64,000 nt of DNA from positions 1-64,000 of the forward strand of contig PHAA01000027.1 of the NCBI GenBank assembly GCA_002840245.1, read 5' to 3'. This document shows, piece by piece, positions 6,823 through 64,000 of the stretch. The notes under the pieces are model-generated. The model searched no databases and was not told where the DNA came from. It worked only from the letters and a program-made list of their open reading frames with translations. Every line of letters starts with the position of its first letter. Position 1 is the stretch's first letter. The position numbers were made by a program, and so were the translations under genes. This stretch comes from Firmicutes bacterium HGW-Firmicutes-15 (GTDB taxonomy: Bacteria; Bacillota; Syntrophomonadia; Syntrophomonadales; Syntrophomonadaceae).

Positions 6823-9704
6823 GAGTGCATGAACTGGCGAAAGAACTCGGGATACCCAGCAAAGAGATGGTTGATACCCTGCAAAAGTTGGGGTTGGATC
6901 TAAAAAATCACATGAGTACGATGGAAGAATCACAGGCTTCCTGGGTTAGAAAGCGGCTGGGTGAAAAAAATGAACCAGCCCCTCAAATAGGACGGCCAGT
7001 TGCTCGGGATGAGCACCCAAGTGCTGAACCCCGGAAGGGCTCTACCACTAGTTCTCCCAGGGTGCAGCAGAATACGGGAATAAATAGAGCGGTTCAACCA
7101 AGACCAGGAAGTAATACCCCAAGCGGACCGGTGGGGCAAGATCCGAAAAAGATATCCCAAGGTAGACAATCGGGTTCACAACCTGATCAATCAGGTATAC
7201 AAGCAATTCAGCCTCCTGAGTTCGAAAGACGTGGTAATGAGGTTAGAAACAATCAGCCCAGACCGATGAGTGGCTCTGATAATCGGCAGGGTGATGTTAG
7301 GCCAGGAGTTGGTCCCAGACCGACAAATGGTCCTGATAATCGGCAGGGTGCCCCTAGACCAGGAATTGGCCCCAGGCCAACCAGCGGCCAGGATAATAGA
7401 CCGGGTGCTCCTAGACCAGGAACTGGCCCCAGGCCAACCAGTGGCCAGGATAATAGGCCGGGTGCTCCTAGACCAGGAATTGGCCCCAGGCCAACCACCG
7501 GCCAGGATAATAGGCAGGATGCCTCTAGACCAGGAACTGGCCCCAGGCCAACCAGTGGCCAGGATAATAGGCAGGGTGCTCCTAGACCAGGAACTGGCCC
7601 CAGGCCAGCCAGTGGCCAGGATAATAGGCAGGGTGCTCCTAGACCAGGAACTGGCCCCAGGCCAACCAGTGGCCAGGATAATAGGCCGGGTGCTCCTAGA
7701 CCAGGAACTGGCCCCAGGCCAACCAGTGGCCAGGATAATAGGCCGGGTGCCCCTAGACCAGGAACTGGCCCCAGGCCAGCAGCTTCAACCCCCACCAGTA
7801 ATCCCGGATTCGGACCAAATAAAAAGCCCGGGTTTGCCAATACTCAGGGTAAACCGCCCAAGAAAGCGGTTCCCCCTAAACCCCAGTTTACTAAAGATTA
7901 CAGCCGACCCCAGAAGAAGGGTAAACATAAAAAGAAAAAAGAGGAAGCAATTTTAGTAACGCCTGATTTAATTACTGTAGGTGATTCCCTCCAGGTAAGA
8001 GAATTAGCAGATAGGCTTGCTAAAGGTTCAGCTGAAATCGTTAAAAAGTTAATGGAACTTGGTATAATGGCAACTATCAATCAGGAGATTGATTATGATA
8101 CTGTAGAGATTATTGCCAGCCTTTATGACGTGGCGGTTGAACGTGAAATCCTCGAAGAACAAAAAATACTGGAAGAAATCGTTGACAGCAAGGAAAGCCT
8201 CTTGCCCCGTTCTCCCATTATTACAGTAATGGGCCATGTTGATCATGGTAAGACCTCATTGCTTGATAAGATTCGTAAAGCAGATGTGGTTTCGGGAGAA
8301 GCCGGGGGGATTACTCAGCATATTGGAGCATATCAGGTAACAGTTAATGATAATCGCATAACATTTATTGATACTCCAGGGCATGCGGCGTTTACGGCTA
8401 TGAGAGCCAGAGGTGCTAACCTTACTGATATAGTAATCCTGGTGGTGGCAGCTGATGACGGGGTTATGCCTCAGACCATAGAAGCGATCAATCACATCAA
8501 AGCTGCTAAAGTTCCCTTTGTAGTGGCTTTGAATAAAATGGATAAGCCCGATGTTAATCCAGACAAGGTAATGCAACAGCTGACTGAATACAATATAGTG
8601 GCTGAAGAGTGGGGCGGCGACACCATGTTTGTACCGGTATCTGCGAAAACTGGTATGGGTATTGATAACCTTTTGGAGAGGGTACTGTTGGTGGCTGAAA
8701 TGCATGAAATAAAGGCTAATCCAGACCGACCCGCCGAAGGCGTCGTGATAGAAGGCGAACTCGATAAAGGGCGCGGCGCGGTAGCCACTTTACTAGTTCA
8801 GAAGGGTACTTTAAAGGTAGGGGACTCCATAATATGTGGGTTTACCTGGTGTAAAGTAAGAGCTATGACTGATTACCGAGGACGTAAGGTTGATATGGCC
8901 TTGCCCTCCATGCCGGTAGAAATTACTGGTTGGTCCGATGTTCCCGAAGTAGGAGAAAAAGTTCAGGTATGTGACGAAAAGATAGCCAAGGAGATAGCCA
9001 GTCTGAGATTGAGTGAGAAGAAGCTAGAAGATCAAAAGCGTAACAGTAAGATTTCGCTGGATGATTTCTACAAGCAAATGGCAACGGGAATGAAAGAATT
9101 GAACCTGATAATAAAGGGCGATGTTCAGGGTTCGATTGAAGCCTTGGCGCAATCATTGCTCAGGCTAAGTACCGGTGAGGTCAAGGTGAATGTTATTCAT
9201 TCAGCAGTAGGAGCCATTACCGAAACCGATGTGATGTTGGCTTCGGCATCCAATGCGATTATTATTGGATTCAATGTTCGACCTGATGTGAAAGCCAGGA
9301 AATATGCCGAAGAGGAGAACATAGATGTTCGTCTGTACCGGGTAATATATGAGGCTATTGATGCTGTGAAGAAAGCTATGGAAGGGCTTCTTGATCCTGA
9401 GTACCGCGAGAAATATCTGGGGCGTGCAGAGGTTAGGGCTACCTTCAAAACGCCTAATGCCGGAACTATTGGTGGTTCTTATGTAATTGACGGCAAGCTA
9501 CAAAGAAATGCTAGCATGAGGGTATTGAGGGATTCAGTCATAGTTTATGAGGGGAAACTTTCATCTTTGAGGCGTTTTAAAGATGACGCTAAGGAAGTCG
9601 TTGAGGGTTATGAATGCGGGATTGGCATCAAAGACTTTAACGATATTAGAGAGGGCGACATTATCGAAGCCTATACTATGGAAGAAATTGCACGAAAACT
9701 TTAA
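6810..9704 (+). CDS. infB: Translation initiation factor IF-2 with a repetitive linker
   Basis: IF-2 (964 residues) is the GTPase that brings initiator tRNA to the ribosome. The first IF2_N domain is at about 1-52. A long Pro/Gly/Arg-rich linker follows, including nine 19-residue repeats (residues 153-323). A second IF2_N domain is at about 390-440. The GTPase has GHVDHGKT (about 473-480), DTPGH and NKMD. Domains II-IV, ending near [15 protein letters not shown], complete it. The protein is longer than Bacillus IF-2 (716 residues) because of the linker. Translation is probably coupled to ylxQ. Confidence 0.97.
7266..7778 (+). repeat. Nine tandem 57-bp repeats within infB
   Basis: Nine in-frame 57-bp units encode variants of the 19-residue unit [19 protein letters not shown]. 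The first two units are the most diverged ([10 protein letters not shown]..., TNGPDNRQG...). The later ones differ by only a few bases. This pattern fits recent tandem expansion by slippage or unequal recombination, and copy number is likely to vary between strains. Confidence 0.95.
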
Positions 9705-13523: not shown

Positions 13524-13530
13524 AACTTTA

Positions 13531-13737
13531 GGGACTGTTAGGGAATAAAGTGGGAAGAATACTCCGAGTATGTTTCGTGTTAGACAAGGCGTCACCCTTC
13601 GGGTACTACTGGTGCCACCTGGCGGTCGCCAATAATGTTGCAAAGTGCGGTCATACTAAACGTATGACAAGCTTTGATAACGAAGTATAACGCGAAAAAG
13701 ACCGGAGTAAATTACCAATTTATCCCCTTACAATCCC
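13531..13737 (+). mobile_element. MITE-like element E1 between rpsO and pnp
   Basis: This 207-bp non-coding element is bounded by imperfect 19-bp inverted repeats (GGGACTGTTAGGGAATAAA; 16 of 19 match the other end). Inside each end lies a second inverted block (ACTCCG...TTTCGTG...). The centre holds one copy of the 48-bp unit (13593-13642 with flanking CA). It is related to the elements at 16870-17129, 35220-35574 and 48383-48458. It carries no transposase and no clear target duplication. It ends 26 bases before the inferred pnp start, so it sits inside the pnp leader. Confidence 0.82.
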
Positions 13738-13763
13738 GTATATAGCGAAAGGAGGAGTTTCAA

Positions 13764-16059: not shown

Positions 16060-16887
16060 ATTAAATTAGATAGCCGAACCCTTTTTCTTGTGTCCTTTTT
16101 TATTAGTTTAACACTGATAACAACTTGGATGGATCGAATAGAACGCGACTTATTAGGTGTTCGGGAAGGAGTTACGGTTGAGAATGTCAAGGTGGAAAGA
16201 CTACTTCCGGGAGAACTCCGCGGGGTAGTCGAAGAGATGGCCATAAGATATCAGAAACTACCGATTGAGCCCCGATTAGACCAAGACACAGGGGGTATCA
16301 TTGCCGAAGAATCTGGAATCAGTGTCGATGTGGACAAAACTTTAGCGCAAATCCAAGCAGCTGCACCCGGGCAAATAGTTCAACTAGAAATTATAACCAG
16401 CCAACCTCTTCATCGAAGCCAAGATATTGCGAACGCTAAGCATCCCATAGCGGGGTATCAGACCTGGTTTCATGGTAGTGCGGAAAGATATAATAATATT
16501 TCAGTAGCACTGAAAAGTATAAACAATACTCTGGTATGGCCTGGGGAAGTATTTTCGTTTAATGAGGCTACCGGGCCTAGAACGCCAGAGAGGGGGTATC
16601 TTCCTGCTCCTATTATCTTAAACGGAGGATATGATGTAGGGTACGGGGGAGGTGTCTGCCAGGTATCCAGTACTTTATATAATGCTGCTTTGATAGCTAA
16701 GCTGCCCATCATTGAACGACATGCGCATACTAAGCCCGTTCACTATGTTCCCGAGGGGAGAGATGCCACAGTTAATTTTGGTTATTTAGACTTGAAATTC
16801 ATAAATAATCGGGATGGCCCACTCATAGTTAAGACTACCTTGCAGAATGGCCGTATATATGTGGAGTTAAGGACTATCAAGAAATAA
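16060..16887 (+). CDS. VanW family protein, probably membrane anchored
   Basis: The protein has a VanW domain: FNEATGPRTPERGYLPAPIILNGGYDVGYGGGVCQVSSTLYNAAL, then [27 protein letters not shown]. VanW proteins occur in glycopeptide-resistance clusters and near sporulation genes; their biochemical role is unknown. The first standard start is GTG 16090, which has no ribosome site and cuts the N-terminal helix (TLFLVSFFISLTLITTW). The frame is open upstream to an ATT at 16060, nine bases after GAGAGGG (16044-16050). That gives 275 residues, against 265 from the GTG. An ATG at 16055 is out of frame and stops after four codons. The final codons (TIKK and stop) lie in the end repeat of element E2. 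Confidence 0.78.
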   Translation: MKLDSRTLFLVSFFISLTLITTWMDRIERDLLGVREGVTVENVKVERLLPGELRGVVEEMAIRYQKLPIEPRLDQDTGGIIAEESGISVDVDKTLAQIQAAAPGQIVQLEIITSQPLHRSQDIANAKHPIAGYQTWFHGSAERYNNISVALKSINNTLVWPGEVFSFNEATGPRTPERGYLPAPIILNGGYDVGYGGGVCQVSSTLYNAALIAKLPIIERHAHTKPVHYVPEGRDATVNFGYLDLKFINNRDGPLIVKTTLQNGRIYVELRTIKK

Positions 16888-17129
16888 ACTAGTCATTTAC
16901 TCAGGTATTTTTCTTAGCTCATACTTCGTTATCAAAACGCGATAATACCCTCCAGTATTACCACGTTTTGCAACATTATTGGCGACCACTAGGGAGCACC
17001 AGCAACCTTAATAGTGAGCTGATGCGAACACCAGAAGTCCCCGAAGGGGGTAGTGCCCGGAGGGTGACGCCTTGTCTAGCACGAAAAATACTCGGAGTAT
17101 TCTGCCTTATTCATTCCTGGATAGTCCCT
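16870..17129 (-). mobile_element. MITE-like element E2 between vanW and the deacetylase gene
   Basis: This 260-bp element lies in the opposite orientation to E1. Its reverse complement closely matches the element at 35220-35574, including identical internal blocks. The ends are AGGACTATCAAGAAATAA (16870-16887) and TAGTCCCT (17122-17129). A 98-base segment (16969-17066) is a 50-base core holding a nested 48-base copy of itself. The left end codes for the vanW C-terminus and stop codon. The right end stops five bases before the GGGGAG ribosome site of the next gene. Confidence 0.83.
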
Positions 17130-17150
17130 AAGAGGGGAGAAATGATTTGT

Positions 17151-31846: not shown

Positions 31847-31884
31847 AAAATGCGACCCTTTGTCTCAAGAAAGGGTCGCATTTT
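31847..31884. promoter_or_regulatory. Inverted repeat, candidate activator site upstream of the chemoreceptor gene
   Basis: A perfect 15-bp inverted repeat (AAAATGCGACCCTTT with AAAGGGTCGCATTTT) has an 8-base spacer. The half-site AAAGGGTCGCA recurs, with changes, three times upstream of the beta-oxidation operon (50773-50817). The inner edge is 107 bases before the GG of the -24/-12 promoter at 31986, the same distance as at the other locus. It looks like a sigma-54 activator binding site, although it could also form an RNA hairpin. Confidence 0.62.
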
Positions 31885-31921
31885 AGGACTGTGGTAACAT
31901 ATGGTAATTGAATTGGGTATT

Positions 31922-31957
31922 AGCCGTATTTTCTAGATGCTGAAAATACGGCTTTTT
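31922..31957 (+). terminator. Intrinsic terminator between the activator site and the -24/-12 promoter
   Basis: A 12-bp perfect stem (AGCCGTATTTTC with GAAAATACGGCT) and an 8-base loop are followed by TTTTGAC. The same stem sequence occurs at 50856-50893 at the equivalent place in the beta-oxidation locus. It probably ends the PhoU-like transcript and insulates the downstream promoter. Confidence 0.75.
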
Positions 31958-35219: not shown

Positions 35220-35574
35220 GGGACTATCACCCTTCGGGTACCACTGGTGTTCGCTAGCGCTTACTAATAATGTTGCAAGGAATAAACAAGGCAGAATAGT
35301 CCGAGGATTTGACGTCCAAGGATGGACTAATGCAGCGGTGCCATGGATGGCAAAGAGCTGCTTCGTGCTAGACAAGGCGTCACCCTCCGGGCACTACCCC
35401 CTTCGGGGACTTCTGGTGTTCGCATCAGCTCACTATTAAGGTTGCTGGTGCTCCCTAGCGGTCGCCAATAATGTTGCAAAGCGCAGTAATACTAGACGTA
35501 TTTCAAGATTTGAGAACGAAGTATAGCACGAAAAAGACCGGAGTGAATGACTAGTTTATTTCTTGATAGTCCCT
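35220..35574 (+). mobile_element. MITE-like element E3 upstream of PBP1A
   Basis: This is the longest family member, at 355 bp. Its ends are GGGACTATCA (35220) and TTTCTTGATAGTCCC. It contains two copies of the 50-base core, 35228-35277 and 35381-35478. The second core is split after 17 bases by an exact 48-base nested copy (35398-35445). Compared with E2 it carries an extra segment (about 35290-35365). It ends six bases before the PBP1A ribosome site, so it forms most of that gene's leader. Confidence 0.83.
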
Positions 35575-47507: not shown

Positions 47508-47578
47508 GTCATCCTGAGGATCAGCGAAGGATCTTTCCCCTAAGCGTGGGGAAGATTCTTCACTTCGTTCAGAATGAC
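47508..47578. repeat. Palindromic dispersed repeat, copy 2 (complete)
   Basis: A 71-base palindrome from GTCATCCTGAGG to TTCAGAATGAC. Its arms pair across a CCCC-TAAGCGT-GGGG loop. It is the same family as the window start (1-64). It lies between the TIGR04086 gene and the ZIP transporter gene in non-coding DNA. Confidence 0.88.
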
Positions 47579-47674
47579 AACTCTTATCTAAAGATATATC
47601 ACGAGGCTAACAGAATAAGCATTTCATCCCCCACATAGACATGGTATATATTGTTTGCAGGTGGGGTGTGGGTT

Positions 47675-50772: not shown

Positions 50773-50817
50773 AAAGAGTCGCAATTTGCAACCCTTGTCG
50801 TTAAATAAATAGTCGCA
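50773..50817. promoter_or_regulatory. Cluster of three half-sites upstream of the beta-oxidation promoter
   Basis: AAAGAGTCGCA (50773-50783, direct), TTGCAACCCTT (50786-50796, inverted) and AAATAGTCGCA (50807-50817, direct) are variants of the half-site in the inverted repeat at 31847-31884. The last ends 106 bases before the GG of the -24/-12 promoter. They are the best candidates for the activator's binding sites. Confidence 0.6.
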
Positions 50818-50855
50818 TTTTGGTACCATGTAAATAAATAACATTTAAATTAATG

Positions 50856-50897
50856 AAAAGCCGTATCTTCGCAATGCCGAAAATACGGCTTTTATTT
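50856..50897 (+). terminator. Terminator of the activator gene
   Basis: An 11-bp stem (AAAAGCCGTAT with ATACGGCTTTT) and a 16-base loop are followed by ATTTTTT. The stem sequence matches the terminator at 31922-31957, which holds the equivalent place between activator sites and promoter. Confidence 0.8.
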
Positions 50898-59357: not shown

Positions 59358-62300
59358 TTGGCCATACGATTTATCTTGGGTAGGGCTGGTATGGGTAAAA
59401 GCCATCATATCCTCCAAGAAATTAAAGAGAACCTAAAGGATGACGGAGAAGATAGATTAATTCTACTGGTTCCGGAACAATTTACTCTTCAATCAGAACG
59501 GGATTTAATCCAGAAGTTGAAACTACCGGGAATTATGCGGGTGGAGGTTTTAAGTTTCACCAGGCTGGCCCAGCGGGTTTTCAATGAAGTGGGCGGGCTG
59601 ACCCGCACCCTCCTAAATGAGCAGGGCAAAAATATGGTATTAAGAAAGATGATCGACGAGGTCGCTCGCGATTTGAGTATTTATAAAAAGGCTGTCCAGC
59701 AGGACGGTTTTGTAAGCAAATTCAGCGAACTCTTATCTGAACTCAAACAACAGGATATTCTTCCAGCGCAACTCCTTGCCAGTATGGAAGGAGAGGAAGA
59801 GCTTATCATAAAACACCCTTCGGGTACGCCTGATGCTCCCGGGGGGTCGCTAATAATGTTGCATAAGATACATGATATTGCCCTCATCTATGAGCATTTT
59901 AACGAGTACCTGCAGGGACGTTACCTGGATACCGAAGACTACCTGAACCTTTTAATAGATAAGATAGACGGAGCCCAGTTCTTAAAAGGGGCCCGGGTTT
60001 GGCTGGATGGGTTTACCACCTTTTCACCTCAGAGCTTAAAAATCCTTAAAAAAATAATGTTCCTGGCTCGGGATACCACCATCAGTTTGAGCCTGGATGG
60101 TAACCGGCAGGCCAGGGATAGCGATTTGTTCACCCTGTCCTGGCGCAGCTTCCAAAAGATTCAGGCCATTGCCCGGGAGCATGGATTAGCTGAGGAAACT
60201 ATCCGCTTGAATGGCGCAGCAGCTGATTCCATGAAAAGTCCTGAAATCCTGCATGTGGAATCAGAACTATACGCCTATCCGAATCGCATTTTCCCGGGAG
60301 ATGTCCAGCATCTTGAACTATTCGCGGCCACCAATATCAACAGTGAGCTAGAATACGTGGCAGCTCAAATCCTGAAACTGGTGCGGGAACAGGGCTATCG
60401 CTGGAGAGACCTGGCCGTGGTCTGTAATAATATGGACAGCTATGGAAGTCTATTTAAACGGGTTTTTGATGAATATTCAATACCCTATTTTATGGATCAA
60501 AAGAGGGATATCATGAACAACCCCCTCATTCAACTCATTCTGTCTTCATTAGAAGTGATTCGTCGGGGGTATCGCTATGAAGATGTATTTCGCTTCTTTA
60601 AAACCGGTTATAGCGGCTTGACGGGTGATGATATCGAGAAATTGGAGAATTTCGTGCTCCGTTATGGAATTCAGGGACAGGGTTGGAAGCAAGAGTTTTT
60701 CCTGGATCAGTCTGAGCCTTTAGAAGAATTGAACCGATGGAGGGAGACCTTTATCATTCCGATCCAGAAGCTTGAAAATCAGGTGAAGGGGAAGAATTCT
60801 ATCGCTTACATCACCAGGGCCTTCTATGAATACCTGGAAGACATTGGGGTGCATGCGCGACTTCAAGAGTGGATAGAAAAACTGAACGATGAGAACCGCT
60901 ATGAACTGGTGCGAGAGAATACCCAGATATGGAATATCGTTCTGGAAATATTTGACCAGATGGTAGAGATAATGGGCGACCAGGAAGTCAATATTAAAGA
61001 ATATCTGCGTATCTTGGAGGCGGGCTTTTTGTCGCAGGAAGTGGGTATCATTCCCACTACTATTGATCAAGTTCTGGTTGGCAATATTCAAAGGTCAAAA
61101 AGTCATGATATTCGTGGGCTGCTGGTAGTGGGGGTAAATGACGGGGTCTTACCATCTGGTCAGGAAGAGGAGGGCATTTTGTCCGAGACTGAGAAAGTTT
61201 TGCTTTTAAATAAGGGAGTAGATTTGGGTTTTGATCTTAATCGCAAATTATCGGAGGAGAGGTTTTTAATCTATACAGCTCTGACCAAACCCACCGAGTA
61301 TCTTGGTTTGTCTTTTGCCCTAGCGGACATGGAGGGTAAAGCATTGCGCCCGTCGCTCTTAATCAACCGCTGCCAGAAAATATTTCCCGGACTGCAGATA
61401 GAGAGTGACGTGGTAAATAATTATTTTCATGAGTTGAATAAGGTATCTGCTTCTAACAGTACCTTTAAATATTTGGTCGAAAACCTGCGACTTAGACTGG
61501 ATGGTAAAGCTAGCGAAGAATTTTGGTGGGATGTATATGCTTGGTTTTATGGACAGGAAGCATGGCAGGAACGGCTCAGTTCAGTTATTGATGGCCTGTT
61601 TCATCGTAATCAGGCTGCTTTTATTGGTTCCGAAAATGCCCATAAGTTGTATCACCTTCCGCTTCATTCTACGGTTTCACGGGTGGAGCAATTTGTAAGC
61701 TGCCCTTTCGCCCATTTTGTCCGTTATGGGTTAAAACCGCAGGAACGCAAGATATTTGCGGTTGGAGCACCGGATGTGGGAGAACTCTTTCATAATTGTC
61801 TGCAGTCTTTTGCTCTAAAACTGAGGGAAGAGCATATAAACTGGTCGGAGCTACAGCGGGTAGAATGCGAGAGCATCATGGACGGTATTATGGATGAAAT
61901 GGCGCCCGTGCATGGGCATGGGGTATTCGCCAGTACACACCGATACCAGTATCTTATGAAAAGACTGAAGAGAATTAGCCGCCGGGCGGTGTGGACGCTC
62001 ACCACCCATCTTCAACACGGCGATTTTAAACCCCTGGATTTTGAAGTGAGTTTTGGGCCGGGATGCCCTTTCCCTGCCATCAAAATCGAAATTGGGAATG
62101 GGGAAATATTTTATCTGGTGGGAAGAATAGACCGTGTTGACTTGCTGGACGAGGAAGGCGGAACTTTTGTTAAAATAATTGATTATAAATCCGGGAATCA
62201 GAAATTTAGTCTATCTGATGTCTATTATGGATTAAGCTTGCAACTAATGATTTATCTCCAGGCTGTTTTGGCTAGCCATCATCAGCTACAGCGCCCGCAG

Positions 62301-62933
62301 CTGATGCCAGGTGGAATATTCTATTTTAAGATTGATGACCCTCTGATTAATACCGAATCCAAGGTAGTGGAGACAATTGAGAAAGAAATTGCCAAAAAGC
62401 TGAAAATGACGGGGTTGGCTTTGGAAGATGTGAGACTGGTTCGCCAATTGGATCGCGAAATCGGGAAGAGTTCGGAAATACTGCCGATAGCTTTAACTAA
62501 GGATGAAGGTTTTACAAAGAATTCATCCGTGTTACCACAGGAGGATTTCATGGCCCTAATCAGCCATGTTGAGGGACTTCTCCAGGAAATTGGCCGGGAG
62601 ATCATGCGTGGCAAGGTGAAAATCGAGCCGATTAATGACGGCCTCCGGACGGCCTGTACCTTCTGCTCCTACCGAGCTGTTTGTCAGTTTGATCGCTTGT
62701 TGGAGGATAATAACTACAGAAATATTAAGCCTTTGAAGGACGAGGAAGTCATTACCCGGATTCGCCCTGCGGGCACTTCTGGTGCTCCCACCCTTCACCC
62801 TTCGGGTACTCCTGATGTTCGCGATAGCTCACCAATAATGTTGCACCCTGCGGGTACTCCTGATGGCAGCACACTATCACTGCCAAAGTTGGACGGGACA
62901 AAGGAGGGGACTGAACTTGCGAGAGTGGACTGA
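59358..62933 (+). CDS. addB: ATP-dependent helicase/nuclease subunit B (AddB) with in-frame repeat insertions
   Basis: AddB (1191 residues) works with AddA to resect double-strand breaks before recombination. The N-terminal Walker motif is GRAGMGKS (8-15). The C-terminal nuclease has RIDRVDLL and KIIDYKSG. The iron-sulfur cluster cysteines are in VSCPFAHF and in CTFCSYRAVC. Residues 153-169 (HPSGTPDAPGGSLIMLH) and the tail 1137-1191 are translated copies of the 48-bp repeat found in the window's MITE-like elements. Both keep the frame open. The tail carries the addA ribosome site. The TTG start follows a GGGGGTG site. Confidence 0.93.
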   Translation: MAIRFILGRAGMGKSHHILQEIKENLKDDGEDRLILLVPEQFTLQSERDLIQKLKLPGIMRVEVLSFTRLAQRVFNEVGGLTRTLLNEQGKNMVLRKMIDEVARDLSIYKKAVQQDGFVSKFSELLSELKQQDILPAQLLASMEGEEELIIKHPSGTPDAPGGSLIMLHKIHDIALIYEHFNEYLQGRYLDTEDYLNLLIDKIDGAQFLKGARVWLDGFTTFSPQSLKILKKIMFLARDTTISLSLDGNRQARDSDLFTLSWRSFQKIQAIAREHGLAEETIRLNGAAADSMKSPEILHVESELYAYPNRIFPGDVQHLELFAATNINSELEYVAAQILKLVREQGYRWRDLAVVCNNMDSYGSLFKRVFDEYSIPYFMDQKRDIMNNPLIQLILSSLEVIRRGYRYEDVFRFFKTGYSGLTGDDIEKLENFVLRYGIQGQGWKQEFFLDQSEPLEELNRWRETFIIPIQKLENQVKGKNSIAYITRAFYEYLEDIGVHARLQEWIEKLNDENRYELVRENTQIWNIVLEIFDQMVEIMGDQEVNIKEYLRILEAGFLSQEVGIIPTTIDQVLVGNIQRSKSHDIRGLLVVGVNDGVLPSGQEEEGILSETEKVLLLNKGVDLGFDLNRKLSEERFLIYTALTKPTEYLGLSFALADMEGKALRPSLLINRCQKIFPGLQIESDVVNNYFHELNKVSASNSTFKYLVENLRLRLDGKASEEFWWDVYAWFYGQEAWQERLSSVIDGLFHRNQAAFIGSENAHKLYHLPLHSTVSRVEQFVSCPFAHFVRYGLKPQERKIFAVGAPDVGELFHNCLQSFALKLREEHINWSELQRVECESIMDGIMDEMAPVHGHGVFASTHRYQYLMKRLKRISRRAVWTLTTHLQHGDFKPLDFEVSFGPGCPFPAIKIEIGNGEIFYLVGRIDRVDLLDEEGGTFVKIIDYKSGNQKFSLSDVYYGLSLQLMIYLQAVLASHHQLQRPQLMPGGIFYFKIDDPLINTESKVVETIEKEIAKKLKMTGLALEDVRLVRQLDREIGKSSEILPIALTKDEGFTKNSSVLPQEDFMALISHVEGLLQEIGREIMRGKVKIEPINDGLRTACTFCSYRAVCQFDRLLEDNNYRNIKPLKDEEVITRIRPAGTSGAPTLHPSGTPDVRDSSPIMLHPAGTPDGSTLSLPKLDGTKEGTELARVD
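59814..59863 (+). repeat. 48-bp unit inserted in addB (internal copy)
   Basis: This 50-base core (a 48-base unit with flanking CA) matches the core of element E1 (13593-13642) at 42 of 50 positions. The first 14 and last 12 bases are identical. In this frame it encodes HPSGTPDAPGGSLIMLH, placed before KIHDIALIYEHF, where AddB proteins normally have no such segment. Confidence 0.85.
62764..62880 (+). repeat. Tandem 48-bp units forming the AddB C-terminal tail
   Basis: A partial unit (from 62764), a full 50-base core (62796-62845) and another partial unit (from 62844) lie in tandem; the last two share CA, giving a 48-base period. Translated, they read RPAGTSGAPTLH, PSGTPDVRDSSPIMLH and PAGTPDGSTLS. 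They fall between the end of the conserved AddB sequence (FDRLLEDNNYRNIKPLKDEEV) and the addA start. Confidence 0.85.
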
Positions 62934-64000
62934 AGAACAGGAAAATGCTATCACAGCTAGAAATACGAATCTTTTGGTGGCTGCAGCAGCAGGTTCAGGC
63001 AAAACTGCGGTTCTGGTGGAGCGCATTATCCAGCTGATAATAAAGGATAAGGTGGATATTGACCGGATGCTGGTTGCAACCTTTACCCATGCAGCAGCCG
63101 GAGAGATGCGCGAGAGAATCAGTGCTGCCCTCTTGGCGGAATTGGAAAAGAAAGATGAAAATGAAGAATACTTGAGAAAGCAGATGAACTTATTAAACCG
63201 GGCATCCATCAACACTTTACATGCATTTTGTACTGATGTGGTCAGGAAATATTTTTATTTAATTGATGTTGATCCGAATTTCCGTATCGGAGATACTACT
63301 GAAACTTCAATAATGAAGCTGGAAGCCATAGAAGAGCTGTTGGAAAGCGAATACGCTAAGGAATCCCCTGCCTTTCTAAATCTGGTGGAAATGTTTGGCG
63401 GGGGCAAAGATGATGCTCCCCTGCAAAAATTGGTTTTGCAGGCATATGAGTTTATTCAGAGCAAGCCGAATCCGCTGGCATGGATGGAAACCCGAGCTGG
63501 GGATTTTAATATGACTGAGGAAGAATTTGCCTGCTGTCCATGGATAGAGAGTCTTACCCAGCAACTTCGTATTAACCTATCTGGGGCCAGGGATCTTTTC
63601 AGCGAAGCCGTACAGATTACAGAAATGGTGCAAGGACCTCTGGCTTACCAGCCCGCCCTCATAGATGATGTGCAAACGGTAGAGCAGCTTATTAAGGCTT
63701 TGGGTCAGGGACTACCCTCACTATACGAGCAGTTAGCTGAGGTGCAGTACTCGCGGCTAGGACGGGTTAGCAAAGATACTGATGCGGTATTACAGGAAGA
63801 GGTCAAGGAACTTCGAGCACAAGGAAAAAAAGTCATTGACAACATCCAGTCTAAAATATTGTTCCAAACTCCGGAACAATTTCGCCAGGACTTAAATGAA
63901 CTCTATCCTGAAATAGAATATCTATGTAAACTGGTCACTTCCTTTACAGCGGTATATCGGGATAAAAAGAGTGATAAAGGAATCTTAGATTTCAACGACC
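62917..64000 (+). CDS. addA: ATP-dependent helicase/nuclease subunit A (AddA), 5' part
   Basis: The first 361 residues of AddA, a UvrD-type helicase with a C-terminal nuclease, are present; the gene runs off the window. REWTEEQENAI forms the Q-motif region and LLVAAAAGSGKTAVLVERI (about 18-36) the Walker A motif. ATFTHAAAGEMRERI is motif Ia, and NTLHAFC follows. The TTG at 62917 is six bases after AAGGAGGGGA and overlaps the end of addB by 17 bases. Confidence 0.95.
   Translation, partial: MREWTEEQENAITARNTNLLVAAAAGSGKTAVLVERIIQLIIKDKVDIDRMLVATFTHAAAGEMRERISAALLAELEKKDENEEYLRKQMNLLNRASINTLHAFCTDVVRKYFYLIDVDPNFRIGDTTETSIMKLEAIEELLESEYAKESPAFLNLVEMFGGGKDDAPLQKLVLQAYEFIQSKPNPLAWMETRAGDFNMTEEEFACCPWIESLTQQLRINLSGARDLFSEAVQITEMVQGPLAYQPALIDDVQTVEQLIKALGQGLPSLYEQLAEVQYSRLGRVSKDTDAVLQEEVKELRAQGKKVIDNIQSKILFQTPEQFRQDLNELYPEIEYLCKLVTSFTAVYRDKKSDKGILDFND

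Follow-up and report, generated by a model that had tools for sequence, protein, structure and literature searches.

The addB gene near the end of the 64,000-nt stretch analysed here (the window) carries the same 48-bp unit at two places, and this raises the question whether a mobile repeat has entered the gene and is translated within it. A preliminary description had placed the unit at 59814-59863 and an array of it at 62764-62880; both are present, while their limits are corrected to 59814-59861 and 62765-62891, the two bases after the site 1 unit (CA) being target and outside the unit. Its claim that both insertions preserve the reading frame holds, as the frame of the 1191-aa AddB is uninterrupted.

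Table 1. Positions of addAB, of the 48-bp units and of the MITEs (window coordinates unless a contig of the source genome, G000, is named).
Feature	Position	Strand	Remarks
addB	59358..62933	+	1191 aa, two in-frame insertions; ADDB_N 9e-90, PDDEXK_1 1.5e-46
Full unit, addB site 1	59814..59861	+	Peptide HPSGTPDAPGGSLIML, AddB residues 153-168; empty site in relative G001 AAA|CAAAAA
Truncated unit, head of addB tail array	62765..62795	+	
Full 48-bp unit, addB tail	62796..62843	+	HPSGTPDVRDSSPIML
Degenerate 48-bp unit, addB tail	62844..62891	+	Head intact; hairpin-2 stem now GGCAG...CTGCC (read from sequence)
addA	62917..64000	+	Runs past window; overlaps addB end
addA insertion, antisense, nested	G000:C68:64409-64552		
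addA insertion, sense	G000:C68:65818-65865		
MITE interrupted by unit	13529..13740	+	
Unit in MITE	13593..13640	+	At GGCGT|CAAAGT
Outer unit with nested inner unit, in MITE	16971..17066	-	Outer 17066-17051 plus 17002-16971; at GGCGT|CAAAAC
Inner 48-bp unit	17003..17050	-	Nested in outer at position 16|17
Unit in MITE terminal repeat	35228..35275	+	GGACTAT|CAAGGA
Outer unit with nested inner unit, in MITE of 35228 unit	35381..35476	+	Outer 35381-35396 plus 35445-35476, inner 35397-35444; at GGCGT|CAAAGC
MITE stretches in window	13529-13740, 16868-17131, 35276-35575		

Copies of the unit in genomes and in genes

The consensus of the unit, approximately CACCCTTCGGGTACTACTGATGTTCGCTATCGCTCACCAATAATGTTG, begins CACCCTTCGGGTAC and finishes AATAATGTTG. 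It is frequent in the 3.47-Mb source genome (G000), as a mobile repeat had been expected to be, with about 48 sites. The site counts derive from searches and fetched stretches: blastn of the genome with the unit gave 47 hits, a profile search of fetched loci gave 69 units grouped in 45 clusters, and four further sites lie beyond these clusters (C84:55569, C31:70531, C71:61597, C30:90969). The contig of the window holds 9 unit clusters in 78 kb where about 1 is expected, four of them within MITEs, and the 22-nt head of the unit matches the window 7 times, while no shuffled window gives any match. The unit is confined to the Syntrophomonadaceae, 22 of 54 family genomes carrying it in a patchy manner, and was absent from all 24 order- and phylum-level outgroup genomes. 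When 84,980 species genomes were scanned with a stringent pattern, all hits fell in this family (S. zehnderi and S. wolfei among them) apart from a single MAG labelled Bacillota. Searched against Rfam, the unit matched no known structured-RNA family.

Nine of the sites fall inside genes, including addA, addB and mutL, and each copy there adds 16 amino acids. Both orientations (sense 5, antisense 4, relative to the gene) and three reading frames are used. The sense-frame peptide HPSGTPD...IML occurs in addB, addA and mutL and the antisense-frame peptide ATLVVSDSEHQACPKGD in addA, cheA, parA and a TPR-like gene, while a second sense frame yields PFGYHRC...NNVA in tldD. The in-frame copies thus extend to mutL, cheA and the small TPR-like gene adjoining parA, and the carA C-terminus is likewise altered. 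Five of the nine sites lie in addA, addB or mutL, yet these represent two loci only and do not establish an enrichment in repair genes. Repeats of another kind, about ten of 57 bp (19 aa) each in an array, make up window 7200-7835, in the part of infB that encodes the N-terminal region of initiation factor IF-2.

Filled and empty alleles

Base-level comparison of filled and empty alleles was obtained for parA, tldD, addB site 1, addA site 2 and the addB tail. The empty reference was the sister genome G006, which at ~86% DNA identity to G000 is the closest genome compared, except at addB site 1, where it was G001. In addB, addA, parA and tldD the filled allele differs from the empty one by exactly 48 bp. 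At the DNA level the junctions, with [48] standing for the unit, read CTAT|[48]|C in parA, CATG|[48]|CC in tldD and TTAAT|[48]| in addA (all against G006), and AAA|[48]|CA in addB site 1 (against G001). No target-site duplication exceeds one base at these insertions; as the first base of the unit is a C, a duplication of 1 bp looks the same as none.

As the preliminary description had predicted, the relatives in the AddB alignment cleanly lack residues 153-168, and a second clean gap follows about residue 1136. Site 1 holds one unit in G000, three in tandem in G006 and none in G001 and the other relatives; the entire tail insertion (43 aa) is found in G000 only, being missing in G006, G001 and all other relatives. 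In other genes the sister genome has units of its own: two in cheA near residue 213. Its mutL has a related but altered insert, which counts against the reading as a mobile element. A BcrA/BadF-type ATPase gene of G031 contains three near-identical units. At several intergenic sites no clean empty alignment was obtained, G006 having gaps or N runs there.

These alleles bear on the view that the inserts are ancient protein parts that relatives have lost. Directly upstream of the ribosome-binding site of rplF (L026, L246, L253), two units lie in G000, divergent ones occupy the same place in G001, and none is present in G006; G006 seems to have lost them, so that loss probably also happens. As an account of the inserts, however, ancient parts are contradicted by a repeat that is common to unrelated proteins in three frames, and by its absence from the AddB of at least 20 relatives, which have neither insert, and from relatives of TldD, ParA and AddA site 2. 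We therefore give this view practically no weight.

The proteins that received units appear to function. Judged by dN/dS values of 0.06-0.18 in seven comparisons between G000 and G006, the hit genes are under purifying selection, and their Pfam domains are intact. This agrees with the earlier remark that the conserved parts of AddB are undisturbed: both of its inserts are modelled as disordered, AlphaFold giving pLDDT <50 at residues 148-162 and 1138-1191 next to confident flanking helices. All in-gene units are 48 bp long, whereas 12 of 35 intergenic units in G000 depart from this length, at 46, 47 or 49 bp (p = 0.01 from a tally by hand). The length kept in genes points to selection for frame, and hence to translation of the inserts inside the proteins. 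We also weighed translational bypassing of the inserts but set it aside, as it would need neither the 48-bp length nor the stop-free frames that in-gene units keep.

Altogether, we propose that this 48-bp unit is a non-autonomous mobile element of very small size, private to the Syntrophomonadaceae, and that it is tolerated and translated in proteins (probability about 0.86). Its movement is inferred from the alleles rather than observed directly, the nearest genome compared being ~86% identical in DNA.

Target preference, self-nesting and the MITE

The unit had been described as the core of the MITE-like elements of this genome, and this part of the preliminary description has to be abandoned. 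The MITE is 164 bp long, with ends TAGGGACTATCAAGGAATAAA and a self-complementary middle, and about 35 copies or fragments exist in the genome. Some 17 full-length copies are without the unit; in roughly a dozen others it splits the MITE at GGCGT|CAAAGC, and the match segments 1-66 and 65-163 of such a split MITE have just CA in common. The unit also occupies another position in the MITE, where it has the opposite orientation, and is found in the MITE terminal repeat; these other positions and the uninterrupted copies rule it out as a core. Like bacterial MITEs the unit is non-autonomous and dispersed, but its ends (CACCC...GTTG) are not inverted repeats, it makes no duplication of more than 1 bp, and it inserts into a true MITE of G000. 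By these sequence comparisons the unit is an element in its own right, for which both the MITE and other copies of the unit serve as insertion targets. Another repeat, GACGTCCAAGGATGGACTA..GCAGCGGTGCCATGGATGGCAA, is present at window 35313-35358 and at loci C25, C45, C57 and C73, often beside units and MITEs.

In 25 cases, taking a full unit out of the sequence brings back an intact host unit, with the same orientation in 25 of 25, although the cases are not all independent, as composites can be copied. Only three entry points are used: host positions 7|8 (hairpin 1 loop), 16|17 (linker) and 26|27 (near the hairpin 2 apex). The best case is cheA, where the G000 array is the G006 unit CACCCTTCGGGCACGCCTGATGTTCG|CTGTCGCTCACCACTAATGTTG with a second unit lodged at TTCG|CTGT; addA contains a three-level nest (read from sequence). 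Across 48 distinct flanks, C stands at position +1 in 44 (p ~4e-23), G at +3 in 26 and T at -1 in 25. The resulting T|CNG also occurs inside the unit at nesting point 7|8 and, in most copies, at 16|17, so that a preference for sequence may be enough, with no need of one for structure.

Ordinary minisatellite slippage with gene conversion, and no mobile element, might be held responsible for the differences between arrays. Tandem copies do exist (G006 addB, the G031 BcrA-like gene), and slippage may explain part of the change in copy number. As a full explanation it is contradicted by the empty sites, by single units at unrelated places with sequence-specific junctions, and by inner nested units that differ in sequence from their hosts; it could account only for local array growth, and we consider it very improbable as the whole story.

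Fold, candidate movers and comparable repeats

The unit can fold into two hairpins, hairpin 1 being ACCC-TNC-GGGT and hairpin 2 having a conserved TC/TC mismatch. Six base pairs show two-sided change; pair 23-36 occurs as C-G in 15 sequences and as T-A in 12, and pair 26-33 as C-G in 14 and as G-C in 13. The observed covariation is not attained on any of five measures in 500 shuffles, a control that relatedness inflates, and the signal disappears when the structures are slid. Folded as RNA, single units mostly gave no significant z-score, and the structural claim thus rests on covariation, which supports two hairpins kept by compensatory change, as RNA or as DNA on either strand.

Such a fold, together with same-orientation self-nesting at fixed positions, recalls twintrons and the RNA route that has been suggested for the small dispersed repeats (SDRs) of cyanobacteria, and the unit might likewise spread via an RNA copy, by reverse splicing or template-primed reverse transcription. 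The in-gene insertions are, however, about equally sense and antisense (5 to 4), and this absence of a transcription bias speaks against mRNA-directed insertion, host mRNA not being the target; we regard an RNA route as unlikely.

A REP/BIME-type repeat moved on folded single-stranded DNA by a Y1 (HuH) transposase of the RAYT/TnpA-REP kind would fit a unit that forms hairpins, is dispersed and inserts without duplication. REPs are known in frame within repair genes (PMC3733652; PMC6006769), Y1 genes occur in G000 and most carriers, and at C65 a 21-bp partial unit lies ~550 bp from a Y1 match. On the other hand, the 30 Y1 loci fetched offer no full unit within 1.5 kb and one weak partial match, and hence no repeat-flanked transposase gene. 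Carrier G011 has units without a Y1 match, and many non-carriers have Y1 genes. The foot tetranucleotide GT[AG]G or CGTC is absent ahead of single inserted units, the 5' flanks varying and GTTG/GTAG standing at the 3' end only. Finally, orientation is 15 with against 13 opposed to the leading strand; lagging-strand insertion would give a bias, and its absence speaks against insertion on the lagging strand only. In G026 (a 2.94-Mb single-contig genome) unit orientations likewise have no replichore bias evident by eye. Mobilisation by a RAYT, unsupported by flanks, distribution among genomes and strand bias, appears doubtful to us. Y1 transposase genes at L155 (G000:C11) and L158 (G007:C5) are flanked by their own inverted repeats, AAACAAAAAGAACGTCCC, which are TIRYT-like and unrelated to the unit.

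Neither a mobilising enzyme nor an autonomous parent of the unit was found. For the mobile element proposed here, we infer a trans-acting recombinase or transposase that would move the 48 nt in folded or circular form and join them at N|C. The unit has inserted as exactly 48 bp and nearly always directly ahead of a C. A recombinase acting in trans on such a form is the most likely mover, a choice that we hold at slightly under even odds. The unit would act as a parasite of the genome. Given its length of 48 bp and its several open frames, copies that land in flexible protein loops or tails could escape selection, would be translated as Pro/Gly/Ser/Thr-rich peptides, and would later grow by tandem or nested insertion in frame-keeping steps. 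A bolder formulation, which we offer tentatively as possible rather than probable, would place the unit among the smallest independently mobile elements, with a new recombination route that joins the folded or circular 48-nt form to N|C in either strand, prefers itself as target, and repeatedly builds peptide segments into core recombination and repair proteins.

The suggested likeness to Rickettsia palindromic elements (RPEs) is valid for the way the unit works and fails for membership. RPEs are dispersed repeats of ~150 bp found in Rickettsia between genes and in frame in conserved proteins (PMC2229807, PMC10969869). The unit shares with them this distribution, the empty orthologues of its in-frame insertions and a mobiliser unknown for both; RPEs are restricted to Rickettsia and each has an ORF for a conserved peptide, whereas the unit has 48 bp, three frames, self-nesting and hosts in the Syntrophomonadaceae. 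Intragenic GTAG/CGTC REPs, too, are short and palindromic and lie in frame within proteins, many of which serve DNA repair (uvrA, uvrB, recB), as monomers, dimers and groups (PMC3733652). The two-hairpin, 48-bp unit differs in having no GTAG/CGTC tag at a hairpin foot and no REPtron.

By anatomy the nearest kind is the cyanobacterial SDR, set beside the unit by description. SDRs are said to have been described by Elhai et al. in 2008 (cited in PMC3116915), from Nostoc and relatives, as elements of 21-27 nt. Both kinds are very small, have a covarying hairpin, are embedded in minitransposons and nested in themselves, belong to one coherent clade and have an unknown mobiliser; the unit differs in length (48 nt) and in its clade, and to our knowledge in-frame insertion into many conserved proteins is not a hallmark of SDRs. 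Double-hairpin elements of fungal mitochondria are ~50-bp mobile units with two hairpins and nested insertion, similar by description in size, fold and nesting and different in being mitochondrial. The unit thus works like RPEs, intragenic REPs and cyanobacterial SDRs, but misses defining features of each. In the literature searched for this repeat in Syntrophomonas we found no description of the family, in line with the preliminary claim of novelty, which does not extend to the kind: very small mobile repeats, some in frame in repair genes, are already known.

How repeats too small for a transposase spread (RPEs, SDRs, double-hairpin elements) is a long-standing open question, which base-exact filled and empty alleles, the before-C rule, three nesting entry points and the addAB targets make testable. 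Mobile DNA that builds 16-residue segments into proteins in three frames would also add another case of small repeats in recombination and repair genes.

Two further repeats were noted in the window. A perfect 73-bp direct repeat, TGAGGATCAGCGAAGGATCTTTCCCC...AGAATGACAACTCTTAT, is another dispersed repeat, at 1-73 and 47515-47587, and a 90-bp repeat pair (31867-31956 and 50804-50893, 70% alike) ends in a terminator-like hairpin (AGCCGTATTTTC...GAAAATACGGCTTTT).
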